Origin: a virus
Length of the DNA: 25,754 nt
Strand: one strand, 5' to 3'
IMG/VR virus record: IMGVR_UViG_3300025896_000179
Span: 1-25,754 of that record
Shown: piece after piece, positions 1 to 25,754 of the stretch
How the letters are laid out: each line of letters opens with the position of its first letter
Position numbering within the stretch: position 1 is the first letter of the stretch
Notes under the pieces: generated by a model
Told to the model about the DNA's origin: nothing
The model's database searches: none
The model's input: only the letters and a program-made list of their open reading frames with translations
Translations under genes and position numbers: made by a program

Positions 1-627
1 ATTCTTAAAGCTAGCTCTCATATATAAATACTTTGAATCACCTATTTTTAACTCATCTTTGTAGTCATATAAGTGATAACCCTCAGCAAAACCTCTAGGG
101 TTTAATATAGGATTTTCAACGATAAAATTTACTGGAATCTGAACTGCTGGTTTTGGTTGACCTGGGACACCATTCGTTACATTTATAGATAAAAAATCAT
201 TACTATTCAAATTAGAATATAAGGTTAGATATGACACTAATTTTTGTGTCAAAGGATTATCGCTATTATAAAAATTCAAGGTTAAAGCAGTTTCTAAAAA
301 ACTATTTTTTCTGTATTTAATATCATCATTCGAAAATCCAACATCACCATAAAAATCTACATAAGTACCAGTATTACCGAATAGTTTTACATCGTAAACT
401 ATTTTATCGATATGGTTACCTTGTAAATCTAAAGGTAAGTATCTAACTCTATCATTATCAACAATAGGGTTTATAGAAGCCTCAACTTCAGTATCAACAA
501 AAACACGCTCAATCAATTCAGCTTGGTCTACATTTTGAAAATCCATACTAATAGGAAACGTGATAGTAGTAGCTGTTGTGCCACCACTAAGTGTTGATAG
601 GTTTATTTTAAATTTATTAACAAACAT
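1..627 (-). CDS. Probable virion structural protein, partial (3' end beyond left edge)
   Basis: I do not recognise the family. The frame is open for 209 codons from an ATG at 627-625 to the left edge, so the C-terminus is missing. It begins MFVNKFKINLSTLSGG and is rich in beta-prone, Asn/Asp/Thr-containing stretches with few charged helices, which fits a phage structural protein. No signal peptide or membrane helix is visible. The start overlaps the stop of the upstream 602-aa gene by 11 bp, which indicates translational coupling and that the two are made together. Its place at the end of the gp25-gp6 block suggests a baseplate or tail-tip part, but this is inferred from context only. The coding frame is well supported by length and overlap; the role is not. 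Confidence 0.75.
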   Translation of the reverse strand, partial: MFVNKFKINLSTLSGGTTATTITFPISMDFQNVDQAELIERVFVDTEVEASINPIVDNDRVRYLPLDLQGNHIDKIVYDVKLFGNTGTYVDFYGDVGFSNDDIKYRKNSFLETALTLNFYNSDNPLTQKLVSYLTLYSNLNSNDFLSINVTNGVPGQPKPAVQIPVNFIVENPILNPRGFAEGYHLYDYKDELKIGDSKYLYMRASFKN

Positions 628-2425
628 CTGGGTCTACTGATTTAACTATAAAATTATCTATTATACGGTCACCTACTGGGTCAGCTGGGAATGTCCCATA
701 ATATAATTTCCATACGGCAAATTGGTCTTGTCTTCTAACGTGAAAACAATAGTTTTGATACATATAATGTGCTCCATTTAAAAAAGGATAATTTAAAGGT
801 TTTTCATCCGTTTCGTTAAATCCTATATCTATCAAATCTCTCCATAAATATCTATCATCACCTAAATTTATAGCATAAGTAGGTAAGCCATTTGTATGTA
901 TATCACCTTCTTCGATATAATTAGAAAATCGTCTAATTTCAATTCTATGATGTGCTTGATAAAAATAACCCTCTTGTCTAGGACCTAAATTTGTCGCTAT
1001 TATTTCTGGTTGTGTTGTGTTAAGAATAACTTTATTAACATAGCTAAATCCAACTGGGTTTGATTCTCTATTTTTCGTGTTAAATCTATGTGAAACACTA
1101 GCTAATACTGTTTCTTTAATCTCACCTATATTATATTCAACTAAATCACCATAAAAATCAAAATTACCAACTAAAACATTATTTTCTAATGGAATATGAC
1201 TTGGAAATGGTAGAGATGTTGATGAATACCCACCGTTATGTATTTTATTTATACTTGGTATGTCTTTTAAATATGATAATGAACTTAGGTTACTAGAGTT
1301 TAGTGTAGCAATATATGGTGTTTCTATTCCAGATGAAACGTTAGTAAATAACCCGTTACTGTCTGTTTTTATCATACTAACATATATTTCACTCAAAGGT
1401 CGACCTAAATTATCAGTTAAATCTGAAACATCAATATCTTCATTAAAAACAAATTGAATTATTTGGTCATTAAAAAAACTTTCACTAAAACCAGCTTGGT
1501 ATGTTTCGTAGTCATCAGTTTCGATAACTGCCGATACCTTTGTTTTTATTTTTCTAAATTTTCTAAAATAATATTCAGATTCAAACCCACTAACAATTTT
1601 TTTCATTCTAGAATGATTACCTATTGGCCCTAAATTCGTTGAATCTATTACAAAATAATAATCTTTTAAATCACCATTATCTAACCCTGTTCTAATCACT
1701 GTGTGGTCACCATCGTAAACTGTTGTACCTGTGATTCTAACTGTATCACCAACAACTAAATTGTGTAAACATGGAATACCAAATGCTATCATATTTCTGG
1801 TAGATACTATTACATCAACAAGCTCAACTAATAGCAGCCCACCAGCTACCATGTTATGGGTTTTATCAGATGAATTTGGATACGTTACGGTTATTTCCCA
1901 ATTTTTAACTGGGGATTGATTTGTAACCCCATGGAATGGTTTAGTATCTGGAATAAAAGAAAATCTTTCTCTTTTTGGTTCCATATCAAAATAGTTACAT
2001 AATGATGATGCTGTTATGTTTGGGTCAAAATATCCAAACCAACCATCTTTTTCTTTAAGGTATTTATTGATACTTTGTCTGTATGTTAAATCACCTTCAT
2101 CCGACACATCTCCATCGTGTGGGTATGATGAATCTAAAAACTCATATGAATTAAAACCAGACCACGTATATTTATCCAACGATAACGAATCAGTTATATT
2201 GAATAATGGGTTACTAACCAATGGGCTTATCGTACCAATTAATCTATAATATGTACAACGTTGTCTTTCAGTGTTAAATCTTTCAGCAACATTAACTATC
2301 TTATTAATTTCGTTAGTAGGTAATAGTCGCTCACTACTCTCAACGTTAATTTTAACTAACGTATCGGTATTAACTGATTTTTTTGATTTCTCACTATTTA
2401 ATCTCTGTTGTATTCTATCTGTCAT
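617..2425 (-). CDS. Unknown tail/baseplate-region structural protein (602 aa)
   Basis: No family is recognised. The 602-residue product is soluble in character, with no signal peptide and no membrane helices. The first 25 residues are charged (RIQQRLNSEKSKKS), and the rest is a mix of beta-prone segments and aromatic-rich stretches. Near the C-terminus there is an aromatic and basic patch (about 565-590) containing YMYQNYCFHVRRQDQF. The ATG start lies 17 bp downstream of the stop of the 1540-aa gene, and its own stop overlaps the next start by 11 bp, so it sits in a tight operon with both neighbours. Being between a large adhesin-like protein and another structural-looking gene, downstream of gp25 and gp6, it is probably a virion protein of the baseplate or tail tip. 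That is an inference from position; the sequence shows no catalytic motif. Confidence 0.8.
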   Translation of the reverse strand: MTDRIQQRLNSEKSKKSVNTDTLVKINVESSERLLPTNEINKIVNVAERFNTERQRCTYYRLIGTISPLVSNPLFNITDSLSLDKYTWSGFNSYEFLDSSYPHDGDVSDEGDLTYRQSINKYLKEKDGWFGYFDPNITASSLCNYFDMEPKRERFSFIPDTKPFHGVTNQSPVKNWEITVTYPNSSDKTHNMVAGGLLLVELVDVIVSTRNMIAFGIPCLHNLVVGDTVRITGTTVYDGDHTVIRTGLDNGDLKDYYFVIDSTNLGPIGNHSRMKKIVSGFESEYYFRKFRKIKTKVSAVIETDDYETYQAGFSESFFNDQIIQFVFNEDIDVSDLTDNLGRPLSEIYVSMIKTDSNGLFTNVSSGIETPYIATLNSSNLSSLSYLKDIPSINKIHNGGYSSTSLPFPSHIPLENNVLVGNFDFYGDLVEYNIGEIKETVLASVSHRFNTKNRESNPVGFSYVNKVILNTTQPEIIATNLGPRQEGYFYQAHHRIEIRRFSNYIEEGDIHTNGLPTYAINLGDDRYLWRDLIDIGFNETDEKPLNYPFLNGAHYMYQNYCFHVRRQDQFAVWKLYYGTFPADPVGDRIIDNFIVKSVDPDVC

Positions 2426-2442
2426 GTTCTATTATTTTTATT

Positions 2443-5400
2443 TTATACTGATTTTTTACAACCCACGCTATCTGTAATCATACTGTTAATTACTGTACCT
2501 GTTGGTACAGAGTATTGTGTTAATGCAGTACCATCATATATATGGTATGGTGTAGAAGTATAAGGTTGAATCCCACCAAAAGCATTTAATTTTTTTATTG
2601 TATTAGGGGCAACTATTGTATCTGCCCATGAACCATTTAATAATGTATTCGGTAAAACTATAGGTCCAATATTCAATACTGGATAAGTACCTGGCAAACT
2701 AGGGTTAGCATTCGGTATTGTATAGAATCCTATATTTCCAAAAAAACATTGATTCATAAATGTTGTTTGAACATATATTGTACATGTTGCCGCTGGTAAA
2801 CCACCAACCATTGGTACTGGTAGTGTTATCGATTGTGCATTTTGAAACTGGTTAGTTCTTATTTGGGTAGCCGTAGTTTGCTGTACACTTTGTGTACCAG
2901 CTAAATTATGACCTGTAACCCAAATATCTGAAAAATACCCAGAACCACCTTGATTACAAGCACTAGCCCTATAATTAGGGTTATTCGTAGCATCTGGTGC
3001 ATTCTGTAAATCATTAATATTAAACTTAAATGTTACTTTATTTGGCGTACATTGTTTTGTATTGTCAATACCAGTTACATTCATTTTTAAAATACCAGCT
3101 GGTAAAATCATATCAGCTTTATCAAAACTAAGATTGGTACTATGACATGTTCTTTGTGTATTTGACATACGTATAAGAATATTTGAATTCAAACTATCAG
3201 CTGGAACTATCAACATAACGGGTTGTGTTGAATTCACAAATGGTATTGTTTGAGTTAAAAATATGTAGTCGCTATTTGCATCTTGTGCATCATCAATATT
3301 ATACTCAATAGTTATTGATGGGGCAGTACCACCATAATTAACATAAAAAATTATTTTATAATTATCTGGGTCATTCTGAGCTGATTGTAAATCAGCTGCT
3401 GATGTTTTAGCTATCTCCATATATGCGTTTAACGATAAAACCGTGCTAATAACATATGCAAAGTTATTTTCAGAATCAACAACTGTAGTAGAGTAAGTAG
3501 CAGCAGAAAGACCAGTTAGATTAAGACCTTCTTCATAATAACCATCAGCCGCTATTGTTGACGCTGAGTAAGGTCCTACACCACCATTAGCATTGATATG
3601 TATCGCACCATTATCACGACCAAAACATGTTACATTAGTGACAAGACTGGTAACTGTTAAAGCCGAAGGTCCATGGATTATTAAATTATGCACATCCACT
3701 GTTGCATTTACAGAATCAGTTACTGTTAAAGTATAACCCATATAACCACCATTTACACCCATATCTAAAGGTAAATTGTTTAATGTTTGTGGTGCGGTTA
3801 AATTTGCTGGACCTAAAATTAAAACACCTAGGCTATTAAATAATTCATATGTATAAGTACCAGAACCGTTACCACCACCAGCTGAACTAACTGTTATTTC
3901 ACCGTTAGGTGATAAATATGAATTACAATCATCACTAACAAAAGCATTTGCAAACAATGGTCCTGGTGGTAAGACTGATATGGTTTGTGATATATAACTT
4001 CCATCCGAACTAGTAACTTGTAGTGTATAAGTACCAGCGGCTAAACCTGTAACGCTAACTTCACTAACACCATTACTAGGTGTTACAACACCATTAATAA
4101 GTGTATTGTTTGGACCACTAATCGTATAACTAAAAGGGCCAACACCACCAATAAAACTAATATTTGCTGTAGCTGTTAAATTTGTAAATGTAATTGGTAT
4201 TAATGAAACAACAACATTAAATTCTACTTGAGTTTTTGGTATACACGTTGTAAAGAATCTTTGATTCATCTTATCTAACCCTGTTTTTCCAGGAATTATA
4301 CCAAAATAAAAGAAATATGAATGTTTTGGTTGTGCAAACATTGAAGCACCACCGAGAGGATACCCTCTAAATTTAATATAATCATTACCATTTGTACATG
4401 GGTCTGACGTACCACCAGAATATGAAAAATCATATTGTCCACAATTAAGTAAATTAAAATTAGTTGAATATGGATAGTTAAGTGTCCAAGTATTTGCAGA
4501 AATATTTAAACCGTAAAATACATCTCTAACCCATTTTGCTCTATCATCGTTGCTTAAATCTAAATCAGCTACACCTATAATACCATTAGCAGCTGGGCCA
4601 CCAATTAATTGTCTATTCTCATCTAATTCCACACCAAACTCACACTGATGTCTAAGGTTTAGACATTGTGTTTCATTAACGTGTAAACCAAGACAATTTA
4701 TACTAAAAAATATTCCAAGAGTATTACCATCAATATCACATTGTCCTGTTGTTAGTACAGTAGCTTGGTCATCAGCAATTTCTTGAATATCTGGTGCTAT
4801 TTTATATGTTGTTGGGACTAAATGTGGTTGAACCTTTGGGACTCCTTGCCAATCACAACTAAATACCGCACCTAAATTAATAATATCTGTTGCAAATATT
4901 TTAACTCTGGCATCATGTGATGATGCAGCGTAATAAAATTCATCACCAAGTTTTTTAATTAAACCTTCTCTTACTGAAGTTTTAAAAACTTTAAATTGTG
5001 AATCTTTTCCACCATTAAAACAAACATCAACTAGACTGTTATTTCTACAGTCATTATCTGGATTACCATTATTATTACCGTCAACGCCACCTTCGGCTAT
5101 TCCCCAATCTGAACAGTCGTATTCGCAGAATTTTTCAGCTGTTTTTCTTTTTTTCTTATATTTTAAAAGAAAACTATAAAGAGAACCATTTATCCAATCA
5201 TTATAAAAATCAAATTGGAATAAATGCATTGATTTCGCCATTTCAAATGCCACACAATCATCTAAACCACACAAATCGAATAAACCACCATGTCCAAAAG
5301 AATCACCATTATAATAATCTGGATAATCTGGTCCAGTTGCTTTATACGATTTATTACCATCAAGACCATGTTTTGAACAACCTGGTGCAAATATATTATG

Positions 5401-7065
5401 GTCACCTTCATTTGGACATTTAACATGAACACACGGAATGTATGATAAAATTTCATCACAATCACAACATGTACCCCTTTTTATACAGAGCTTACACGCA
5501 TTAAACGAGAAAAATGGTATTGAGTCAATAATCCTACCTATCGAATATAAAATTTTACAAATAATCATTAAAACAACATTTAAAATCATCAACACAACAT
5601 TTATAAGTGGGATAATCAAAGCATTCATCATATAGATTAGAAATCCTACAATTTTAATAATCAAACATATTATAAAAAATAAAGGAGTGAATGATGTATT
5701 TACTTTGTTGTATGGGAATGGTGTTTTATCACCACCACAATCATCAACGTCTTTAATACCAGTAATATTTCTAGTATGAACACCGCCAGCAAATGCTGAT
5801 GTTTGTTGATATCTCGAAATGAAATTGCTAACCGAATATATCTTATTCCAATATAAATCTCTAAAGCTAGTTTTTTTGGTTTTATTACCGAATTCGTAAT
5901 CAATTTCTGTTTGTAAACTAGGGTTATTTGGAACTAAGTATTTAGCCCTAGTTCTAAGTCTACCTTCACCACCTGTTTGGTCAAGACCAATTCTAAATCT
6001 AACACTAGCTCTAGTTGGTAGACCTTTGTTTGGGTCGTCAGACGGTTGTAAAACACCAGTTTCTGATGTAACCATATAATCTAAATTCATAGGTATTTGA
6101 TACGCCCATGAACCATTTTCATCTATTAACCTAGTACCTTCAACATCAAAATTTTCAACTGTTCCCTCTATAGTTTCTCTAATCATTTCGATTGTACCTT
6201 CGTTAGATACTTGATTACATAAACCACCTACATCTCGTCTAGGTTTACAGTTTTTACTGACACTATCTTTATCTTGGTCACCAAACATGTTACCCATAAA
6301 GATAGCTGATGGTTTTATATTGTAATTTAAGTCTAAATCAACACGAGTAATACCAATTTCACATGTGTCAGTATTACCCCAAAAAGGTTGTACATTAACA
6401 CCAGCGTTAGCTGATTTAACTTGAATTAGTCTATCTAAATTTGTTCCACCTTTATATTTTGTTGAACTATCAAAGAATTTTGTTGGTGTTCCTTGACTGA
6501 TACTGTCGTAAGGTCTTTGTGATGCTATTCCTATATCCGAAATATCAGCATCAACATGGATTGTGTATGTTCCTAGTGGTACACCAAATATCATGAAATC
6601 ACCAGCATAATTAGTTGTTGTTGTAAATTTATAATATTTACAATAAACCTCTAACATATCTGTGTTATCTAATATTTCTCGTTTGTTTGGGAAGGTACCT
6701 ATTTCTGTGAAACAATCATTATCAGTTTCAGAACTTTTAGGTAATGTATTATATCGAATACCGTCATGATTTTTATCTGTAATTACTTCATATGGATATA
6801 AACCCTTTATTTGTGGGTTATTTTTATCAATATCATCCAAAGGTATAAAGATACTAACTCTAGCGTTTGGAACCCCAAATCCACTATTAATTATTACCCT
6901 ACCAGCAACAACACCATAGTCAGAACAATAGTTTGTATAGGCTTCTTCTTGAGTAATCTTTAGAGAAAGAATCTCAATAAAATCAAAATCTTGCTCTAAT
7001 TTTACTTTAAGGTATTTATCACTACCATTTGGTGTAGTTCTTATTCTTACGGTATTATTTGACAT
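2443..7065 (-). CDS. Giant tail-region protein: carboxypeptidase-regulatory-like domain, hydrophobic block, Cys cluster and SprB-like repeats
   Basis: The 1540-residue product has a mosaic layout. Residues about 50-75 and 150-172 (GVVAGRVIIN, GVPLGTYTIHVDAD) look like a carboxypeptidase-regulatory-like beta sandwich. Residues 458-518 are almost entirely hydrophobic, long enough for two or three membrane passes. A Cys-rich cluster follows at 524-563 (C524, C527, C533, C534, C536, C545, C550, C563), which may bind zinc. Residues about 955-1210 hold three SprB-like repeats (pattern GGxGPY ... LxAGTYxxxVxDS), and the C-terminus ends in another such motif (FGGIQPYT ... ITDSVGCKKSV). SprB is the flavobacterial gliding adhesin, so I infer a host-surface binding or tail-tip role. 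No signal peptide is visible, which fits a virion protein better than an exported one. The start is 5 bp after the 117-aa gene. Coding is certain; the function is an inference. Confidence 0.82.
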   Translation of the reverse strand: MSNNTVRIRTTPNGSDKYLKVKLEQDFDFIEILSLKITQEEAYTNYCSDYGVVAGRVIINSGFGVPNARVSIFIPLDDIDKNNPQIKGLYPYEVITDKNHDGIRYNTLPKSSETDNDCFTEIGTFPNKREILDNTDMLEVYCKYYKFTTTTNYAGDFMIFGVPLGTYTIHVDADISDIGIASQRPYDSISQGTPTKFFDSSTKYKGGTNLDRLIQVKSANAGVNVQPFWGNTDTCEIGITRVDLDLNYNIKPSAIFMGNMFGDQDKDSVSKNCKPRRDVGGLCNQVSNEGTIEMIRETIEGTVENFDVEGTRLIDENGSWAYQIPMNLDYMVTSETGVLQPSDDPNKGLPTRASVRFRIGLDQTGGEGRLRTRAKYLVPNNPSLQTEIDYEFGNKTKKTSFRDLYWNKIYSVSNFISRYQQTSAFAGGVHTRNITGIKDVDDCGGDKTPFPYNKVNTSFTPLFFIICLIIKIVGFLIYMMNALIIPLINVVLMILNVVLMIICKILYSIGRIIDSIPFFSFNACKLCIKRGTCCDCDEILSYIPCVHVKCPNEGDHNIFAPGCSKHGLDGNKSYKATGPDYPDYYNGDSFGHGGLFDLCGLDDCVAFEMAKSMHLFQFDFYNDWINGSLYSFLLKYKKKRKTAEKFCEYDCSDWGIAEGGVDGNNNGNPDNDCRNNSLVDVCFNGGKDSQFKVFKTSVREGLIKKLGDEFYYAASSHDARVKIFATDIINLGAVFSCDWQGVPKVQPHLVPTTYKIAPDIQEIADDQATVLTTGQCDIDGNTLGIFFSINCLGLHVNETQCLNLRHQCEFGVELDENRQLIGGPAANGIIGVADLDLSNDDRAKWVRDVFYGLNISANTWTLNYPYSTNFNLLNCGQYDFSYSGGTSDPCTNGNDYIKFRGYPLGGASMFAQPKHSYFFYFGIIPGKTGLDKMNQRFFTTCIPKTQVEFNVVVSLIPITFTNLTATANISFIGGVGPFSYTISGPNNTLINGVVTPSNGVSEVSVTGLAAGTYTLQVTSSDGSYISQTISVLPPGPLFANAFVSDDCNSYLSPNGEITVSSAGGGNGSGTYTYELFNSLGVLILGPANLTAPQTLNNLPLDMGVNGGYMGYTLTVTDSVNATVDVHNLIIHGPSALTVTSLVTNVTCFGRDNGAIHINANGGVGPYSASTIAADGYYEEGLNLTGLSAATYSTTVVDSENNFAYVISTVLSLNAYMEIAKTSAADLQSAQNDPDNYKIIFYVNYGGTAPSITIEYNIDDAQDANSDYIFLTQTIPFVNSTQPVMLIVPADSLNSNILIRMSNTQRTCHSTNLSFDKADMILPAGILKMNVTGIDNTKQCTPNKVTFKFNINDLQNAPDATNNPNYRASACNQGGSGYFSDIWVTGHNLAGTQSVQQTTATQIRTNQFQNAQSITLPVPMVGGLPAATCTIYVQTTFMNQCFFGNIGFYTIPNANPSLPGTYPVLNIGPIVLPNTLLNGSWADTIVAPNTIKKLNAFGGIQPYTSTPYHIYDGTALTQYSVPTGTVINSMITDSVGCKKSV

Positions 7066-7070
7066 AAAAC

Positions 7071-7424
7071 TTATTTACTCTTTATTGTTATATCTTCAAC
7101 GTTTAACATAACAACATCGTCTTCAGTTAAGTATTCGTCATCATCATCATCATCGTCATCGTCATCGTCATCATCACTGTTAAAAAATTTCTTATTTTTA
7201 ACAAATTTATCTATAACAACTCTTAAATCAACTTCTTTATTTAAAACAATAGTATCAAACATAAACCATATTATCATCAACATTATCAATGGTAATAACG
7301 CTACCGCAACTAAAAACCCTATGATTTTAGCAACATACTTAAGTATTATTGGAATTAATTTTTCTTTTTTTTCATTTTCATCAAATTTAGGCATAGAGCC
7401 CGATGCTTTACAATTACAACCCAT
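7071..7424 (-). CDS. Small membrane protein with poly-aspartate tract (117 aa)
   Basis: No family is recognised. It opens with a short Cys-containing head (MGCNCKASG), followed by a charged segment and a long hydrophobic stretch at residues 23-61, which could be one long or two short membrane helices. A soluble tail follows with 13 consecutive Asp residues (84-96) and further acidic residues. The leading Cys residues are not a lipobox, since no signal sequence precedes them. The hydrophobic part resembles that of the neighbouring 1540-aa protein: both have KI(I/V)GFL followed by a P-L-I and L-M-I pattern. The next gene starts 5 bp downstream, so the two are co-translated partners. A host-type promoter lies just upstream. 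A membrane-inserting or chaperone-like partner of the big protein is possible, but this is inference. Confidence 0.75.
   Translation of the reverse strand: MGCNCKASGSMPKFDENEKKEKLIPIILKYVAKIIGFLVAVALLPLIMLMIIWFMFDTIVLNKEVDLRVVIDKFVKNKKFFNSDDDDDDDDDDDDDEYLTEDDVVMLNVEDITIKSK
7137..7175 (-). repeat. GAT/GAC trinucleotide tract encoding 13 aspartates
   Basis: Thirteen consecutive GAT or GAC codons (9 GAT, 4 GAC) lie inside the 117-aa membrane protein gene. The tract is interrupted at the third base, so it is not a perfect microsatellite, but it can still gain or lose whole codons without breaking the frame. A tract this acidic could bind divalent cations or basic surfaces. Confidence 0.9.
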
Positions 7425-7454: not shown

Positions 7455-7485
7455 CAAATATAGTTATTTAAAAACAATAAGGAAA
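7455..7485 (-). promoter_or_regulatory. Host-type (Bacteroidetes) promoter before the 117-aa/1540-aa genes
   Basis: On the minus strand the -7 element is TATATTTG (7455-7462), matching TAnnTTTG exactly. At a 19-bp spacing upstream is TTTC (7482-7485), one base from the -33 consensus TTTG. It lies between the gp6 stop and the start of the 117-aa gene, about 30 bp upstream of that start. It could give the membrane/adhesin block its own transcription in addition to read-through from gp25-gp6. No experimental start site is known here. Confidence 0.5.
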
Positions 7486-7490
7486 CCCTA

Positions 7491-9311
7491 TTACTTAACC
7501 CTTACAATAATATCCATTGTTGGGTATTTAATTTCAAACATAGTAGTTGGTTCACCGAAAAGAGTATAGTCTTCACTTAAATCAATTTGTCTGGTGTCTG
7601 AATCGATATATGGTTGAGAAATCTCATTAAGACTATATTTCCCACCACCTACTTTATTGAATATCCTCAAACCAGTTACGTTTAAAACACCACCTACATT
7701 ATTGATAGTTTCTAATAATGGTGATATATAAACATTATCCCCCATATCAAATTTATTGATATCTAGGTAATCTTTTACGTCAGTAATTACTTGTGATATA
7801 ATTTGTGATGAAGGCATTTTTTTATCTATAAATAAATCAATTTCAAACGCTAAATTAACAATTCTACCATTGGTGATTTGAACGTAGTCATTAAGCATTC
7901 TATAATCAGCTAAATATGTTGCAATATTATCTCTCAAAGCACTAGTTGATTCGTTAGTAAGTCTACCAGCAGCATCTAAACCTAAGATATATGTTTTAAT
8001 TTTGTTTTGTTCTTCAAATACACCACATCTAAACGGTACACCAAATTTTCCAGGCATTTGTGCTATTCTAGTTTGATAATCTTTTATCGTTACAGCTCTA
8101 TTTTGTGAAGCGAAATTGTATCTAACCATATTTCTAATTTCTTCAACACTAGGTACATCTTTTCCACCTAAAGCTGGAAAAGCATTATTAACCTTAAGTG
8201 AGGCTCTAACACTTGTATTCATTGTGTCGTTTGAACCGTTAACACTCATATTTAAAATACCTAAAGATTTTAACACATTTGGTCCTAGATTTGTATCAGC
8301 ACCACCACCAACTCTATATTTTACAAACATAGTTGTATTTGCTGTTGGTACAACACCCAATGATAGGTTATTAACAAAATCGCCAATTTGGTTAACCAAA
8401 GCTGTATTCGTATCAAAATCACAAAGACTACTAGTATCTTGTGCACCAGCACCTAGAATAATCTTGGTAAAACCTAAATCAGTATATTCTGTTATAAATT
8501 TTTTAACAGTTGATATCCATTTTCCTGGTCTAACACCAGCATTATCGGTAACCTTGCTATTATCTTCAATGAAAACTTTATCTTCAGCCAACGCATCCAT
8601 TTCAAACCATCTATTATTCAAGTTTAAAAATTCATCTAATGAAGGTTCTTTTATAAAATTAGTACCAGAAAGTGTAATGATAGAGTCAATAGATAAAACA
8701 TTATCTTCTGGTAATACTATTTCTAAAAATGGTCTTACATCATTTGTTGTTATAACTCTTTTAAATACTTTGGTATAACCATTCATAACTATTTCTCTTT
8801 TGGTTATGGTATAATTAATCAATGTACCATTTGAGTTAAAGTTAGGTATGATTATTCTATTTGGAATCCCACCTATTGTAAATGGGTTTGCAAAATCAAT
8901 ATCATCATTAGCTTCAAATACTTTTCCACCACCACTAACTTGTGAGCCAGCTCTAATCACTGGTGCATACGATACATCAAATGTATCCCCTAACACAGGT
9001 AACGTCACACTGAAATCGACAATTGTAACACTAGGTCTTTTCCCTGGAATCTTTAACCCAAATGTTCTAGCTAAAGATAAAACTGATTTACGCTCTTTTG
9101 CGTAATCGATTTGTGTTTCTTGGAACATTCTATCGGTATTGGTAGAAAGCATGTCACCAACCGCTGCATTTAACTCTAAAAGCATCATACCGACACTTGC
9201 GTCATTAAAATCATTAAAGATGTCTGGATAATATTGTTTAACCATATTGACTAAGTCTGAACGAATGTCAGCGAAGTTTCTAGAAGTGTATTGAATTCCT
9301 TGATTTGCCAT
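7491..9311 (-). CDS. Baseplate wedge protein gp6-like (baseplate J family)
   Basis: The 606-residue product matches the T4 gp6 / phage P2 gpJ family, which forms the wedge ring that opens during sheath contraction; T4 gp6 is about 660 residues. The N-terminus carries the family signature: YTSRNFADIRSDLV (8-21), YYPD followed by NDFNDASVGMMLLELNA (33-49), then MFQETQIDYAKERKSVLSLA (62-81) and FGLKIPGKRPS. This is typical of phages where each wedge protein binds tail core and neighbouring wedges. The C-terminal half is beta-rich and less conserved in character. It starts 6 bp after the gp25 gene, the conserved gp25-gp6 order of contractile tails, so the two wedge parts are produced together. 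Coding and family assignment are firm; the exact T4 equivalence is by signature and order rather than by full-length alignment. Confidence 0.92.
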   Translation of the reverse strand: MANQGIQYTSRNFADIRSDLVNMVKQYYPDIFNDFNDASVGMMLLELNAAVGDMLSTNTDRMFQETQIDYAKERKSVLSLARTFGLKIPGKRPSVTIVDFSVTLPVLGDTFDVSYAPVIRAGSQVSGGGKVFEANDDIDFANPFTIGGIPNRIIIPNFNSNGTLINYTITKREIVMNGYTKVFKRVITTNDVRPFLEIVLPEDNVLSIDSIITLSGTNFIKEPSLDEFLNLNNRWFEMDALAEDKVFIEDNSKVTDNAGVRPGKWISTVKKFITEYTDLGFTKIILGAGAQDTSSLCDFDTNTALVNQIGDFVNNLSLGVVPTANTTMFVKYRVGGGADTNLGPNVLKSLGILNMSVNGSNDTMNTSVRASLKVNNAFPALGGKDVPSVEEIRNMVRYNFASQNRAVTIKDYQTRIAQMPGKFGVPFRCGVFEEQNKIKTYILGLDAAGRLTNESTSALRDNIATYLADYRMLNDYVQITNGRIVNLAFEIDLFIDKKMPSSQIISQVITDVKDYLDINKFDMGDNVYISPLLETINNVGGVLNVTGLRIFNKVGGGKYSLNEISQPYIDSDTRQIDLSEDYTLFGEPTTMFEIKYPTMDIIVRVK

Positions 9312-9317
9312 AATTTA

Positions 9318-9704
9318 TTATAAATTTATTACTACGATGTCAGTTGTTGTAAAAACATCGTCAGTTATTGTATATTTTAAAGTAACAACCGCAGCATATT
9401 CGCTTTCAGTTGATTCGACTACTGTTATTTCATCTATTTGAAGTTGTGGTAAAAATCTTTTTACCGTTCCTTTTATCTCGCTTTTAATATCATTAAGAGT
9501 CATTCCATCTTCTGGTTCGAAGATAAATTTGATTAAATCAGTACCAAAATCTGGATTGTAAAGTCTTTGTCCTTTTCTAGTAAGTATCAAATGAAGAAGG
9601 TCAGCTTTTATTGCTTGACTGTCTTCATCGTTTAAATCCAAGAAAAAACCCTTGTGACTATCCTTAAAAGGATAATTTATATTGATGTATTTTCCGTTAG
9701 CCAT
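9318..9704 (-). CDS. Baseplate wedge protein gp25-like (GPW/gp25 family)
   Basis: The 128-residue product has the size of T4 gp25 (about 132) and its family pattern: DLLHLILTRKGQRLYNPDFGTDL (35-57) followed by FIFEPEDG (60-67). gp25 nucleates sheath polymerisation on the wedge and is the most conserved baseplate piece of contractile machines. Family members usually carry an EPR motif after the second helix. Here the corresponding place reads FLPQL (84-88), so this motif is degenerate while the fold signature remains. It is the first gene after the terminator that closes the nucleotide/replication cluster and is followed at once by gp6. I am confident of the family. Confidence 0.92.
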   Translation of the reverse strand: MANGKYININYPFKDSHKGFFLDLNDEDSQAIKADLLHLILTRKGQRLYNPDFGTDLIKFIFEPEDGMTLNDIKSEIKGTVKRFLPQLQIDEITVVESTESEYAAVVTLKYTITDDVFTTTDIVVINL

Positions 9705-20599: not shown

Positions 20600-23500
20600 T
20601 TATGTCATCCATGTATTCATTTTATCATCAACATTAATATTGAATCCATAATCTTTTAACGTAACCGCAATACCCGCACAATATGTTGTTGGGTTATTAT
20701 TATCACCCCATGGGGCGTATACATTAACAAATTGTCTAAGTGTTGGTGAATTACCAGCAACATAGTTATAATCACCAGTTGCTTTGTATGGAACACCACT
20801 ATCGTCAAATAATTTATTTGAGTCAATGTCGTAACAATTAGGATAATTAGCTGATGCTGTCGCTGTTACTTTACCACTAACCCATTTATTTAATTTACCC
20901 AAGTAAGCAGTCCAACCCTCGGCCCATGTAGCGTAATGTGCATATCCATCACCACTTCTTATGTTTCCTGGATTTTTTCTTTCTGGTGAAGTATCTAAAC
21001 CTTCAATTACACCTTGTGTCATAGCCATAACACCTTTTTTAGTTAAAGCACCATTTGTATAAAATTCTGGTACTAGTTTTAAACCAGCTACTGATTGTGA
21101 TGGACCAGTCAATTTTTTAATGATTTGATTCTTGTATGATTTTTGTGTTGTAAATGGTTTATTTTTACTAACCGCTGGACAACCAACTTCAGTTCCGTCA
21201 CCAGCACCTTTAACATATTTATATTCACAACCAACATATACAGCTGGTGTTCCATCTTTTGTTTTAGGGTTTGTAACTAAACCTGGTTTGTAATCTTTAT
21301 TAACAGAAACCGTATTACCGTAACTTGCTGGGTTTAATTCCATTAAACATTTTGCAGCTGTACCATGGTATTCAAAATGCCAATGTTCTTCTAACCCATT
21401 ACCATCTCTAAGTTTATATGGTTGCATCCAACCATATTTATATGAATTAGTCATCAACCAGCCATAAGCTGGGTTTGTTGTCCAATTAAAGAAACTAGCT
21501 GGACTACCATTTTTATTATCATTGTGGAATACCTTACCGTCTTTACTAAACATTTGTAAATCGACAGCAATACCCCAACCATGGTTAGTTCTACCAACTT
21601 TTGCAACACCTTTACTACCTGTACCAGCTAATTCTATTTGATGTGCTGTACTTCTATATAATGATGTAATATAAGCATAAGTTTTACCTTCACCACCGAC
21701 TACAAAATTTTCAGATTTCATCCACGCAACCCAATCAGTTAACATTTGAACTAAAGGTTTAACTGCTTCATCTACCAATACTCTTTCTGATTTAGCATAA
21801 GTGGCATTTAAAATAATATTTATACCAGGAATTTCTGGTACATATGTAAATTTGATATTATCAGTGTTGCCTTTTGTACCACCATTCATCACACCATTTT
21901 CCATTATAGTTTGTACAATTGGTGGGAATATACCACTTGTTTCAGTACCACCAGCTGTATTACCGCTAGCTTGACTTGTATCAATGGTATCAGCCAATGA
22001 CATGTATAAATCCATAGCTGATAATGTTGGTGTTTTAGTGTATTTAATTCTAACACCTGTGAAATTTGTCATCATTGAGTTTGGTTTAATAGCGTGTTTA
22101 ACTCTAGTAATCATATAAGCTCCATGGAACATAGGTATATTATCCAATTGGAAGTACATCATAGGTTGAATCATGGCATTACCCATCATCTCAACTTGTG
22201 CTGTATAACTTCTTACTGAATATACGTTATATATGTTTTGACCAGCAATACTTCTATTTGTTTCTGAACCCTTTTGTGATATATCTTCTTGAATTTGAAG
22301 TGATTCATCAGTTTCTGAAAATTCACTTTGGTCAAGATTTATATCTTTGAATATATTTTGGTTCTGTTGGCTATATTTTACCGTAAACACACCCATACCG
22401 TCTTCATAATCCTTGGTTTCTGTTGTAAAGTCAACTGGTGTAGCAGCCATATCAACATTTGAAGAACCGTTACCGTTATCTACACATCTAAAGTCAACAC
22501 CATCATTAGGATAATCTGCGTTTTTAAAATCTAAGTGTTTAGATTTAACACCAGTATATACACAAACAAATGATGGACCACACGAACCCTTACTAATAGC
22601 TTCATCGTAATCACCATAAGGTTTAAATATTGCTTCAATTTCTTCTTGTTTTCTAAAATTAATAAAATTAGGTAAAGCAACAAAGTCGAAATTATTTGAC
22701 GCTAATAATGAACTAATAGAGTCATAAACACTAGTATTTGTATTTTCAACCAAATAATCATTTATCGGTAATGGGTTAATATAAAGCTCTCTACCGATAT
22801 CTTTGAATGAACGACTAACAAATCTAAACGTATCAATAAATTTAGGACTTTTATTACCATATTCTATAGCTAATCCAGTATCAACAACACTTCTACCATT
22901 TGTCCCACCGCATTGATACATAATATTCGCTGCATCTGTTGTTCCAGCTAACCATTTATCACGTATGTTTTTACATGTACGATATAGTACTAATTTTATT
23001 GTATCCTCGTTAGACGTTCCAAATATTGATTGTTCTAAATCTTTCTTGATATTCGATTCAGAATAAGCATCAGCTGTCGTCTTTAACTTGGTTATCATTG
23101 CGTTAAAATATTTATCAAAAACTTCTTTTTTAACTAAAATTGGTTCACGTAATTTTTGGTAAAATACGGCTTTGTCAGTTATTGGTGTTTCCCAAATTTT
23201 CCAACCCGTATTAACTATAATTAATTCTTGAGTCAACCCATCTATGATTCTAGTAACAGCTGGGTTTGTTGTATAATCACCTTTTAACTCTAAAAACATA
23301 TAATAAGCATGCTTTGGTTGTCTAGTATTAGTTTCTGGTATGCGGTCACCTTCTTGAATCACTATTGTCATGATATCATATGACTCTATATTTTTAATGT
23401 TTGGTTCGTTTACAATTAAACTAGCTGGTAGATGATAATTACCTAAATTATCTAAAACAGCAGCATTGTGTAACTTTTGTAGGTATTTATAATAACTAGT

Positions 23501-25754
23501 TGAGTCACCGCTCCAAATTTCTAATTTCTCTCTAATAGTATCCCATGATAACATACCATCAGTACCATTAACAAAATCTAAAAATACTTTCTTAAATTCG
23601 TTTTTTGCTTGTTCTGGTAATCTATTAATAATCTGAAGTTTTTCAATATTTGGATATTGGTATGAACTACCATCTCCATCTGTATCTAAAATTGGTGGTA
23701 TATATTCATCTCTACCTGGTTGTAAAAAATTAGTAGTGTTTAAACCATTTGATGCTAAGATTTTACCTTTTGTCCAAACTAATGGGTCTTTCTTACCACT
23801 ACCACCACCAATGATTCTACCTGTAGAATCAACTATAGGATATTCAACCCCAGAACCTAGTATTTCATTACCATCTTTATCTCTATTATTCGGTTTATTA
23901 ATTCTCCAAAGAATACTACCAATATACGCACACCAAAGTCTAGGTGCGTGTATGAAACCACCTTTTTTATTAAACAAATGTTTTATTTCATTATTACCAA
24001 ACGGGTCAGCAGAACCATTATTATCATTCGCACCATAAATTTTAATATTATGTTCAGTATTAAAAGGTATTGTGTGTAAAAATAATGTCGCTTTTGCATA
24101 TTGTTCACATGAAATCGTTGTATTATTTGCAAGTGTACATTTTGCTTGGTCTTGGAAGTAATAGTATTCACTACCGAATAAACTAAAACTATCATCCGAA
24201 TAAGCATTTCTCATCCATTTATTGGTAAACCAATTAGAACCATCAAACCTAGTTTCGATATATGGGTATGTTACGTCTTTATTAGCACCACTAACAAATG
24301 TATTTAACAATGTTCTATTTTGACCTAAATTAGCGTGTAAATAATACTTATCAGTCATTGATTTATAAGCATCTTTTTTTCCACTATGAATAACTTTAAT
24401 GTTGCCAGTTTTTGTTAAGTCATAATAAGAATCAGTTGCTCTACCATCTTTATCTATTTTTTGTTGTATACCAGAATTTTTACGATTAGAAGCTAAACCA
24501 TTATCAAAATCTTTATAAAAAACATACATAAGTGGTAAACCTTTTAAAGGGGCATCACCAAAATCCATATTCACATATTCTTGAATACCTAAAGTACCAC
24601 CAAAGGAATTATAACCAGCAGATACGTCAACAGTATCTTCCATTAATTTTGATAATATGAAAGTGTTATCTGGTTTTACTTTTTCTGGTGCTGTGTATAG
24701 TACAACATCTTTTTTGTATTCTTCTGGTTTAATTATTTTAACATACATACCACCATCATTTGGCTTATCTACATATTTGTAATTAGCACCGTAAAGTTTA
24801 CCATATGAACGACTATAATTTGTTAAAAATCTAGCACCATTATCAGCTCGTTTAATCAAATTTTCTGGTGAATTATATGGCCAATCTCCCGAAAAACCAT
24901 CGTTTATCGGTAAAACAACTCCCATATCTATATTTGTATGTTTATATTTTTTCGTGGCTGTATCTACAGGTTCACCACCAATATAATTGTAAACATAGTC
25001 ACCGTTTGATAGGATTACAACATTGGTTTCGTTTGAGTTTATTGGCCCTGTTATTTTAGTAACAGAATCTAAAGTTAAAAACGTTAACGATGATTTTATT
25101 TTATCATCTTTAACACCTCTTAAAATAGCATCAGCTTCTATTTCAGCCATACTAGTAATCTCATCATCACTAAGTAATGTTGGGTCGTTTGTATAACCTA
25201 AAAATGTCATAGCTCTGATAACCATAAGTCTTGTTACATCATTATAGTTTTTCATCTCCATTCTAGCGTATGGGTCAAGTTCTGTATAAACTAAAGTATC
25301 GACAGGGTTAACTGGATACCATGTTGACACTTCTTTATCCATATCTGCTTTTACTGCGTCACTAGCTTTCTTTGCTTTTAGAAATGCTGCTAATAAATCA
25401 TCAATAAATACCAACTCATTAACATCTTGTGGTCTTTCTAAAACACCTTTTTCACCTAAATATTTTTCAACATATGTGTTTTCTTTTTCATCTTTTTCTC
25501 GATAATCTGGCCATGAAAAGAATTCTTTTTTATCTAAATATTGTTGGGCAATATCAGAATTAACTAAATTTGTTCCGAATTTTTTTTCTAATTGAGCTGT
25601 TCTAGCGGTATTTGTTGTCGCTTCAGCTGCAACAGAAACATCAAAAATAGTTTCCATAAATACTTCGACAGCCGCTGTAAATATTTCAACAATATTTCTA
25701 ACGGTTGGTTCAAAACCTAGGGTATTCGCAACTGTTTTTTTTAATTCCTCAGCA
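20600..25754 (-). CDS. Giant baseplate hub protein with two peptidoglycan hydrolase domains, partial (5' end beyond right edge)
   Basis: The reading frame stays open from the right edge, 32 codons above the first in-window Met (25657), so the true start lies outside and the protein exceeds 1717 residues. Numbered from that Met, residues about 1100-1200 (VRSYTAQVEMMGNAMIQ ... FHGAYMITRVKH) resemble the gp27/late-control-D hub fold. Residues about 1290-1435 are a VanY/M15 peptidase: H1359-x6-D1366 in TNHGWGIAVD, and H1427 in EEHWHFEY, are the zinc ligands. Residues about 1530-1680 resemble the P5-like lysozyme/transglycosylase family: KNPGNIRSG (N1562) and YAPWGDNNNPTTY. It would cut both the peptide and the glycan of peptidoglycan at the tail tip. 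The N-terminal 1100 residues are unrecognised. The hub domain fused to two hydrolases is larger than T4 gp5 plus gp27 together (about 970). Confidence 0.9.
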   Translation of the reverse strand, partial: AEELKKTVANTLGFEPTVRNIVEIFTAAVEVFMETIFDVSVAAEATTNTARTAQLEKKFGTNLVNSDIAQQYLDKKEFFSWPDYREKDEKENTYVEKYLGEKGVLERPQDVNELVFIDDLLAAFLKAKKASDAVKADMDKEVSTWYPVNPVDTLVYTELDPYARMEMKNYNDVTRLMVIRAMTFLGYTNDPTLLSDDEITSMAEIEADAILRGVKDDKIKSSLTFLTLDSVTKITGPINSNETNVVILSNGDYVYNYIGGEPVDTATKKYKHTNIDMGVVLPINDGFSGDWPYNSPENLIKRADNGARFLTNYSRSYGKLYGANYKYVDKPNDGGMYVKIIKPEEYKKDVVLYTAPEKVKPDNTFILSKLMEDTVDVSAGYNSFGGTLGIQEYVNMDFGDAPLKGLPLMYVFYKDFDNGLASNRKNSGIQQKIDKDGRATDSYYDLTKTGNIKVIHSGKKDAYKSMTDKYYLHANLGQNRTLLNTFVSGANKDVTYPYIETRFDGSNWFTNKWMRNAYSDDSFSLFGSEYYYFQDQAKCTLANNTTISCEQYAKATLFLHTIPFNTEHNIKIYGANDNNGSADPFGNNEIKHLFNKKGGFIHAPRLWCAYIGSILWRINKPNNRDKDGNEILGSGVEYPIVDSTGRIIGGGSGKKDPLVWTKGKILASNGLNTTNFLQPGRDEYIPPILDTDGDGSSYQYPNIEKLQIINRLPEQAKNEFKKVFLDFVNGTDGMLSWDTIREKLEIWSGDSTSYYKYLQKLHNAAVLDNLGNYHLPASLIVNEPNIKNIESYDIMTIVIQEGDRIPETNTRQPKHAYYMFLELKGDYTTNPAVTRIIDGLTQELIIVNTGWKIWETPITDKAVFYQKLREPILVKKEVFDKYFNAMITKLKTTADAYSESNIKKDLEQSIFGTSNEDTIKLVLYRTCKNIRDKWLAGTTDAANIMYQCGGTNGRSVVDTGLAIEYGNKSPKFIDTFRFVSRSFKDIGRELYINPLPINDYLVENTNTSVYDSISSLLASNNFDFVALPNFINFRKQEEIEAIFKPYGDYDEAISKGSCGPSFVCVYTGVKSKHLDFKNADYPNDGVDFRCVDNGNGSSNVDMAATPVDFTTETKDYEDGMGVFTVKYSQQNQNIFKDINLDQSEFSETDESLQIQEDISQKGSETNRSIAGQNIYNVYSVRSYTAQVEMMGNAMIQPMMYFQLDNIPMFHGAYMITRVKHAIKPNSMMTNFTGVRIKYTKTPTLSAMDLYMSLADTIDTSQASGNTAGGTETSGIFPPIVQTIMENGVMNGGTKGNTDNIKFTYVPEIPGINIILNATYAKSERVLVDEAVKPLVQMLTDWVAWMKSENFVVGGEGKTYAYITSLYRSTAHQIELAGTGSKGVAKVGRTNHGWGIAVDLQMFSKDGKVFHNDNKNGSPASFFNWTTNPAYGWLMTNSYKYGWMQPYKLRDGNGLEEHWHFEYHGTAAKCLMELNPASYGNTVSVNKDYKPGLVTNPKTKDGTPAVYVGCEYKYVKGAGDGTEVGCPAVSKNKPFTTQKSYKNQIIKKLTGPSQSVAGLKLVPEFYTNGALTKKGVMAMTQGVIEGLDTSPERKNPGNIRSGDGYAHYATWAEGWTAYLGKLNKWVSGKVTATASANYPNCYDIDSNKLFDDSGVPYKATGDYNYVAGNSPTLRQFVNVYAPWGDNNNPTTYCAGIAVTLKDYGFNINVDDKMNTWMT

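Follow-up and report, generated by a model that had tools for sequence, protein, structure and literature searches.

Hydrophobic segments in the tape measure protein of the lactococcal phage TP901-1 are thought to meet the host membrane, and removal of the first of these regions leaves a phage that neither forms plaques nor lysogenises (PMC5099701). In the T6SS of Bacteroidota, the membrane complex TssNQOPR is linked to the baseplate through TssN (PMC10781749). We analysed a 25.7-kb IMG/VR virus record (the window, meaning the whole stretch of DNA studied here), whose gene content points to a contractile-tailed phage, and within it two neighbouring minus-strand genes that encode a 117-aa protein, SMALL (7071..7424), and a 1540-aa tail-cluster protein, BIG (2443..7065). 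The first-pass annotation had these ORFs 5 bp apart, as is the case (7066-7070), and proposed that their products either carry paralogous membrane hairpins or form a tail device that engages membranes, packed one against the other.

Gene context and protein architecture

The pair is flanked on the minus strand by baseplate and other conserved genes. A gp6-like baseplate wedge gene (Baseplate_J, 7491..9311) and the wedge gene gp25 (9318..9704), both named from Pfam and PHROGs matches, lie ahead of it, and a conserved 602-aa gene (617..2425) comes after BIG here and in relatives. Ribonucleotide reductase and replication genes, named by eye from ORF translations, lie upstream in the window. The remaining tail cluster was seen in a relative with a 274-kb record (L053), where it comprises sheath, tube and an 829-aa protein that is a separate tape measure protein (phrog_167 match, E 8e-18); BIG itself matched no tape measure family in a PHROGs search. 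The tail cluster of this relative also encodes a 1341-aa protein with an OmpA-family domain (L171:5792-9814, E 3e-6). A 1685-aa protein of the window (20600-25657, minus strand) has a VanY D-Ala-D-Ala carboxypeptidase domain at residues 1332-1432 and probably acts as a tail hub or as a component that degrades the cell wall.

A Bacteroidetes host is probable for this large, uncultured phage group, given its promoter type, the SprB repeats described below and one metagenomic bin assigned to Bacteroidota (L088). Distant gp6 homologues with named hosts occur in Flavobacterium phage vB_FspM_immuto and Microcystis phage Mel-JY01 (27% identity), but the genes behind gp6 differ from those of the window, and neither BIG nor SMALL was seen in them.

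BIG begins with a highly conserved part (residues 1-420, 5806..7065) that includes an Ig-like domain of the CarboxypepD_reg / CNA-B type (approximately residues 45-252, 6310..6933). By sequence this assignment scored 18.4 bits, below the curated cut-off of 32.3; by fold (VIA-align) it gave Z-scores of 8.0-8.6 with rmsd 2.2-2.4 Å over 82-84 residues (3e8v, 6hif, 3mn8), a moderate match because such values lie near the background of 7-8. Domains of this type are a common fold, uninformative on the hydrophobic helix of BIG or on SMALL. The predicted model of residues 1-960 had a mean pLDDT of 86, and in it residues 461-514 (5524..5685) form one continuous 54-residue hydrophobic helix, with pLDDT of about 94 over residues 461-480 falling to about 73 by its end. 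At 1.5 Å per residue the computed length is about 80 Å. One face of this predicted helix carries polar residues at approximately seven-residue spacing, namely C467 (codon 5665..5667), N481, N489, N496 and C503, and conservation of the asparagines is 99%, 87% and 68%, respectively. Past the helix comes a cysteine-rich stretch of variable length (approximately residues 520-565, 5371..5508), and the variable C-terminal part matches SprB repeats (PF13573; 32.6 bits, above the curated cut-off of 28) in two stretches, both in this variable end, the better of which spans residues 1142-1167 (3565..3642, E 6e-8).

Beyond the Ig-like domain and SprB repeats, BIG matched no known family, and we found no mention of it in the literature searched. 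Among the matches listed from Pfam, PHROGs and PDB folds there was no baseplate protein, T4-type gp7 and gp10 included; its position beside gp6 is the only feature that fits a T4-type wedge protein. The sole match spanning nearly the whole BIG model was A0A8S5LA66 (BFVD, Myoviridae sp. ctPuP5), an unnamed and uncharacterised protein with near full-length structural similarity (32% identity, E 3e-83). In one relative, a short and apparently duplicated stretch (L074:2800-2860) interrupts BIG and shifts the frame, which may be an assembly error.

SMALL has a common build across relatives: an N-terminal C-x(1-2)-C-K motif is followed by a single membrane helix containing proline. Window-like relatives add an acidic tail that closes with V-E-D-I-T or a similar peptide. 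In the window these correspond to a CNCK motif (residues 3-6, 7407..7418), a predicted membrane helix with a hydropathy maximum of 3.06 (approximately residues 24-58, 7251..7355), a poly-Asp stretch (residues 84-96, 7137..7175) and the C-terminal VEDIT peptide (7086..7100). Of 91 distinct SMALL proteins, 90 retain the close cysteine pair near the N-terminus and all 91 the proline within the helix core. The poly-Asp run is encoded by a GAT/GAC repeat whose length varies among relatives. Median net charge over the 91 proteins is +3 before the helix and -12 after it, and we thus predict, by the positive-inside rule, a single-span protein with its N-terminus inside and its acidic tail outside. No known family was matched: PHROGs returned weak matches, all to unnamed families of unknown function, and no Pfam holin family was hit.

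The shared motif and a probable shared promoter

The motif on which the hairpin proposal was based is present in both proteins. SMALL reads KIIGFL at residues 33-38, PLI at 45-47 and LMI at 49-51, and BIG reads KIVGFL at 471-476, PLI at 486-488 and LMI at both 492-494 and 499-501. The presence of KI(I/V)GFL and P-L-I in both counts in favour of paralogous membrane hairpins, but the similarity did not rise above that of random hydrophobic segments. The Smith-Waterman score of 44 between the two segments was reached by 8% of shuffles and, when each was compared with 154 further hydrophobic segments of these loci, by 1.3% (SMALL) and 8.4% (BIG); cognate SMALL/BIG pairs had a mean score of 33.8 versus 32.9 for non-cognate ones. 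Profile-profile alignment with hhalign gave a probability of 0.9% (E 0.06) versus 0.7% for a reversed-profile control, and 7 of 100 column shuffles were equally good. Paralogy of the segments was thereby rejected, and a hairpin in BIG is not supported by the model, which predicts the segment as a single continuous helix. Because similarity is at chance level and the BIG segment is one helix, we rejected the paralogous hairpin, whose probability we now put close to nil. Judged by these alignments, the common KI(I/V)GFL/P-L-I/L-M-I pattern is a chance likeness of two hydrophobic stretches.

The proposal of a common host-type promoter fared better. A Bacteroidetes-type -7 element, TATATTTG, lies at 7455..7462 on the minus strand, 38 nt before the SMALL start. 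The pattern TAnnTTTG occurred upstream of 27 of 87 SMALL genes versus 6.2 expected from shuffling, with the occurrences concentrated 36-39 nt ahead of the start; of 65 BIG genes, 0 had it upstream. This enrichment before SMALL and absence before BIG are statistical grounds for thinking that one promoter probably serves both genes.

Pairing across relatives and the cysteine of the BIG helix

An IMG/VR search with BIG alone yielded 145 relatives, from which 80 loci were kept, and a second search with a wider alignment yielded at least 599; yet BIG was absent from all phage records searched in the collection. The loci are metagenomic, in many cases fragmentary, and because several from the second round share contigs with first-round ones, we quote non-redundant counts where this makes a difference. 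SMALL lay directly before BIG in 81 of 81 first-round genomes showing upstream sequence, the window included. Overall there were 91 distinct SMALL-BIG pairs, separated by -35 to +41 nt, and the co-occurrence expected of a matched pair was therefore found in other genomes. Two loci (L042 and L074) have an extra gene between gp6 and SMALL, and SMALL still adjoins BIG in them. The pair is also kept in two divergent relatives (L086 and L088; BIG 42-45% identical), where SMALL is shorter and has no acidic tail; their bins belong to Mycoplasmatota and Bacteroidota genomes, respectively, although such bins do not establish hosts. Nine window-like records, 121-362 kb long, each have a single copy of SMALL, and a SMALL-BIG fusion was not seen at any locus examined. 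In phages that bear SMALL, the two genes thus look like an obligate two-gene module of the baseplate cluster, a partnership well supported by the genomics.

Other features of these genomes were noted in passing. The extra genes upstream of SMALL are L074:53-640, which resembles a GIY-YIG homing endonuclease by eye, and L042:9269-9652. Helicase and ribonucleotide reductase genes are apparently split by intein-like or homing elements, again by eye (L012:12-5538, L041:3556-7233, L086:1855-4392). Identity of the group with the bS21 phages of PMC9723584 was rejected, the S21 gene being absent from 13 of the 15 records examined for it, among them all nine that are window-like.

SMALL might instead be a holin, a superinfection-exclusion protein or another host-membrane protein that merely lies under the promoter of BIG. 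A short protein with a single span, a charged tail and weak, unnamed PHROGs matches would suit such a role. However, it adjoins BIG even where genes have been inserted beside gp6, its motifs and C467 vary with BIG, and neither the ORF list nor Pfam gave a lysis gene adjoining it within the window. We consider this explanation very unlikely.

About half of the wider set, among the matches listed, have BIG without SMALL; most of them form a single clade whose gp6 is different. SMALL is also missing from two other loci (L092 and L095), and a third (L087), with no SMALL upstream and a different gene order, was left out of the counts. The idea that this group keeps SMALL elsewhere was rejected: four partial records (L092, L116, L125 and L129) had no match, and two others (L130 and L165) had only non-significant ones (E 0.026 and 0.145). 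In two of the SMALL-less loci, a gene for a 516-542 aa protein overlaps the start of BIG (L118:4439-5989, L132:4373-6001), with an N-terminal MGFLC and, in L132, a short extension. The SMALL-less sister group offers a ready natural comparison.

C467 was present in 66 of 67 non-redundant BIG proteins from SMALL-bearing phages versus 0 of 26 from SMALL-less ones, and the SMALL motif of the sole exception (L097) is also down to one cysteine. Of 162 conserved BIG columns, C467 and Q183 alone follow all three contrasts. Only two gains or losses of SMALL are forced by the tree, each of them tracked by C467. With two forced changes and L097 being too few, this linkage, drawn from aligned residues, is suggestive and not significant. 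Cysteine pairing between SMALL and BIG would be a contact concrete enough to test.

The BIG helix differs between the two groups in hydrophobicity as well. Its median hydropathy is 2.89 with SMALL versus 2.01 without, and the helices of SMALL-bearing relatives have fewer charged residues. The division is imperfect: L095 has no SMALL yet a hydrophobic BIG helix (2.89), and some SMALL-bearing phages have a weak one (1.82). Charged residues within the helix in SMALL-less relatives, together with its continuous 54 residues and a polar face spaced as in coiled coils, would be expected if it were buried in a protein assembly, such as a homo-oligomeric baseplate bundle, and never met a bilayer, with SMALL linked by function or expression only. 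We find this doubtful, as the hydropathy reaches up to 3 over 19 residues and involves most faces, and the strictly linked partner is a membrane protein.

Proposed membrane engagement and comparison with known systems

Within the tail cluster of L053, segments with hydropathy above 1.98 were found in SMALL (2.63) and BIG (2.77) alone; the tape measure protein also contains a hydrophobic stretch, Gly-rich and weaker than these. The first-pass suggestion that the two proteins pack together in a membrane-engaging tail device is the part of that annotation which survives in some form. Adjacency, the covariation of SMALL with C467 and the status of the two as the only strongly hydrophobic proteins of this cluster argue for it. 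When SMALL and BIG of one relative (L012) were co-folded as one chain, with the stop codon read through as Lys, SMALL was not confidently placed against BIG (pLDDT of its helix about 55-66), and a mutual-information scan between the two proteins showed no clear coupling signal at an Neff of 64; neither result speaks for contact. Packing of SMALL and BIG in such a device is our leading inference.

We tentatively favour a reading in which SMALL acts as a membrane partner dedicated to the BIG hydrophobic helix in the contractile-tail baseplate, the two making up a two-part membrane-associated module. The data show gene adjacency, conservation, a predicted continuous helix, on statistical grounds a promoter common to both genes, and SMALL and C467 being present or absent together; contact between the proteins, their topology, insertion into membranes, its timing and a place in the virion are inferred. 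The Ig-like N-terminal core of BIG would probably sit on the wedge beside gp6 and gp25, followed in order by the 54-residue helix, the cysteine-rich stretch and the variable adhesin-like end with its SprB and Ig-like elements. SMALL would be translated just ahead of BIG from the same promoter, and its helix would pair with the hydrophobic helix of BIG, with contributions from the SMALL cysteine pair and C467. In the producing cell, SMALL would then keep that helix in place and shield it while the baseplate is assembled, most likely at the inner membrane; afterwards the BIG helix would meet the envelope of a new host. The SMALL-less phages, in which BIG can do without SMALL, count against this reading. 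If SMALL and BIG do cooperate, these phages would handle the membrane step, whether in contractile injection or in assembling the baseplate, through a dedicated two-gene module beside the baseplate wedge.

A different timing would follow if SMALL were itself a virion component. The helices of SMALL and BIG would in that case be carried by the tail together and jointly enter the target cell's membrane at contraction, as part of an entry pore. The exclusive hydrophobicity of the two proteins in the L053 tail cluster is consistent with this, the Cys/Asn stripe on one face of the BIG helix suits a helix bundle, and tape measure proteins, in which hydrophobic regions can be essential, provide a precedent (PMC5099701). 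Conversely, a strong single-span helix with the N-in/C-out bias of SMALL would insert in the producing cell, a relative's tape measure has a hydrophobic stretch of its own, and SMALL-less relatives exist. We regard such a pore as rather improbable and retain the producing-cell partnership as the preferred account. It is also unlikely, in our estimation, that the pair constitutes a previously undescribed two-component envelope-crossing device, in which a single-span cysteine-pair protein and a cysteine/asparagine-lined baseplate-adhesin helix of about 80 Å, apart from the tape measure, would open or anchor to a membrane.

Like TssNQOPR, in which several proteins span the membrane once, SMALL and BIG may be viewed as membrane proteins whose genes accompany those of a contractile machine, in what is probably the same host phylum. 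TssNQOPR, however, belongs to a cellular secretion system, and the likeness would be one of analogy alone. BIG resembles the tape measure of TP901-1 in being a tail-cluster protein with a hydrophobic segment. Unlike that protein, it is encoded after gp6, abounds in Ig-like domains and comes with a small membrane partner as a separate protein, and the tape measure of these phages is another gene.
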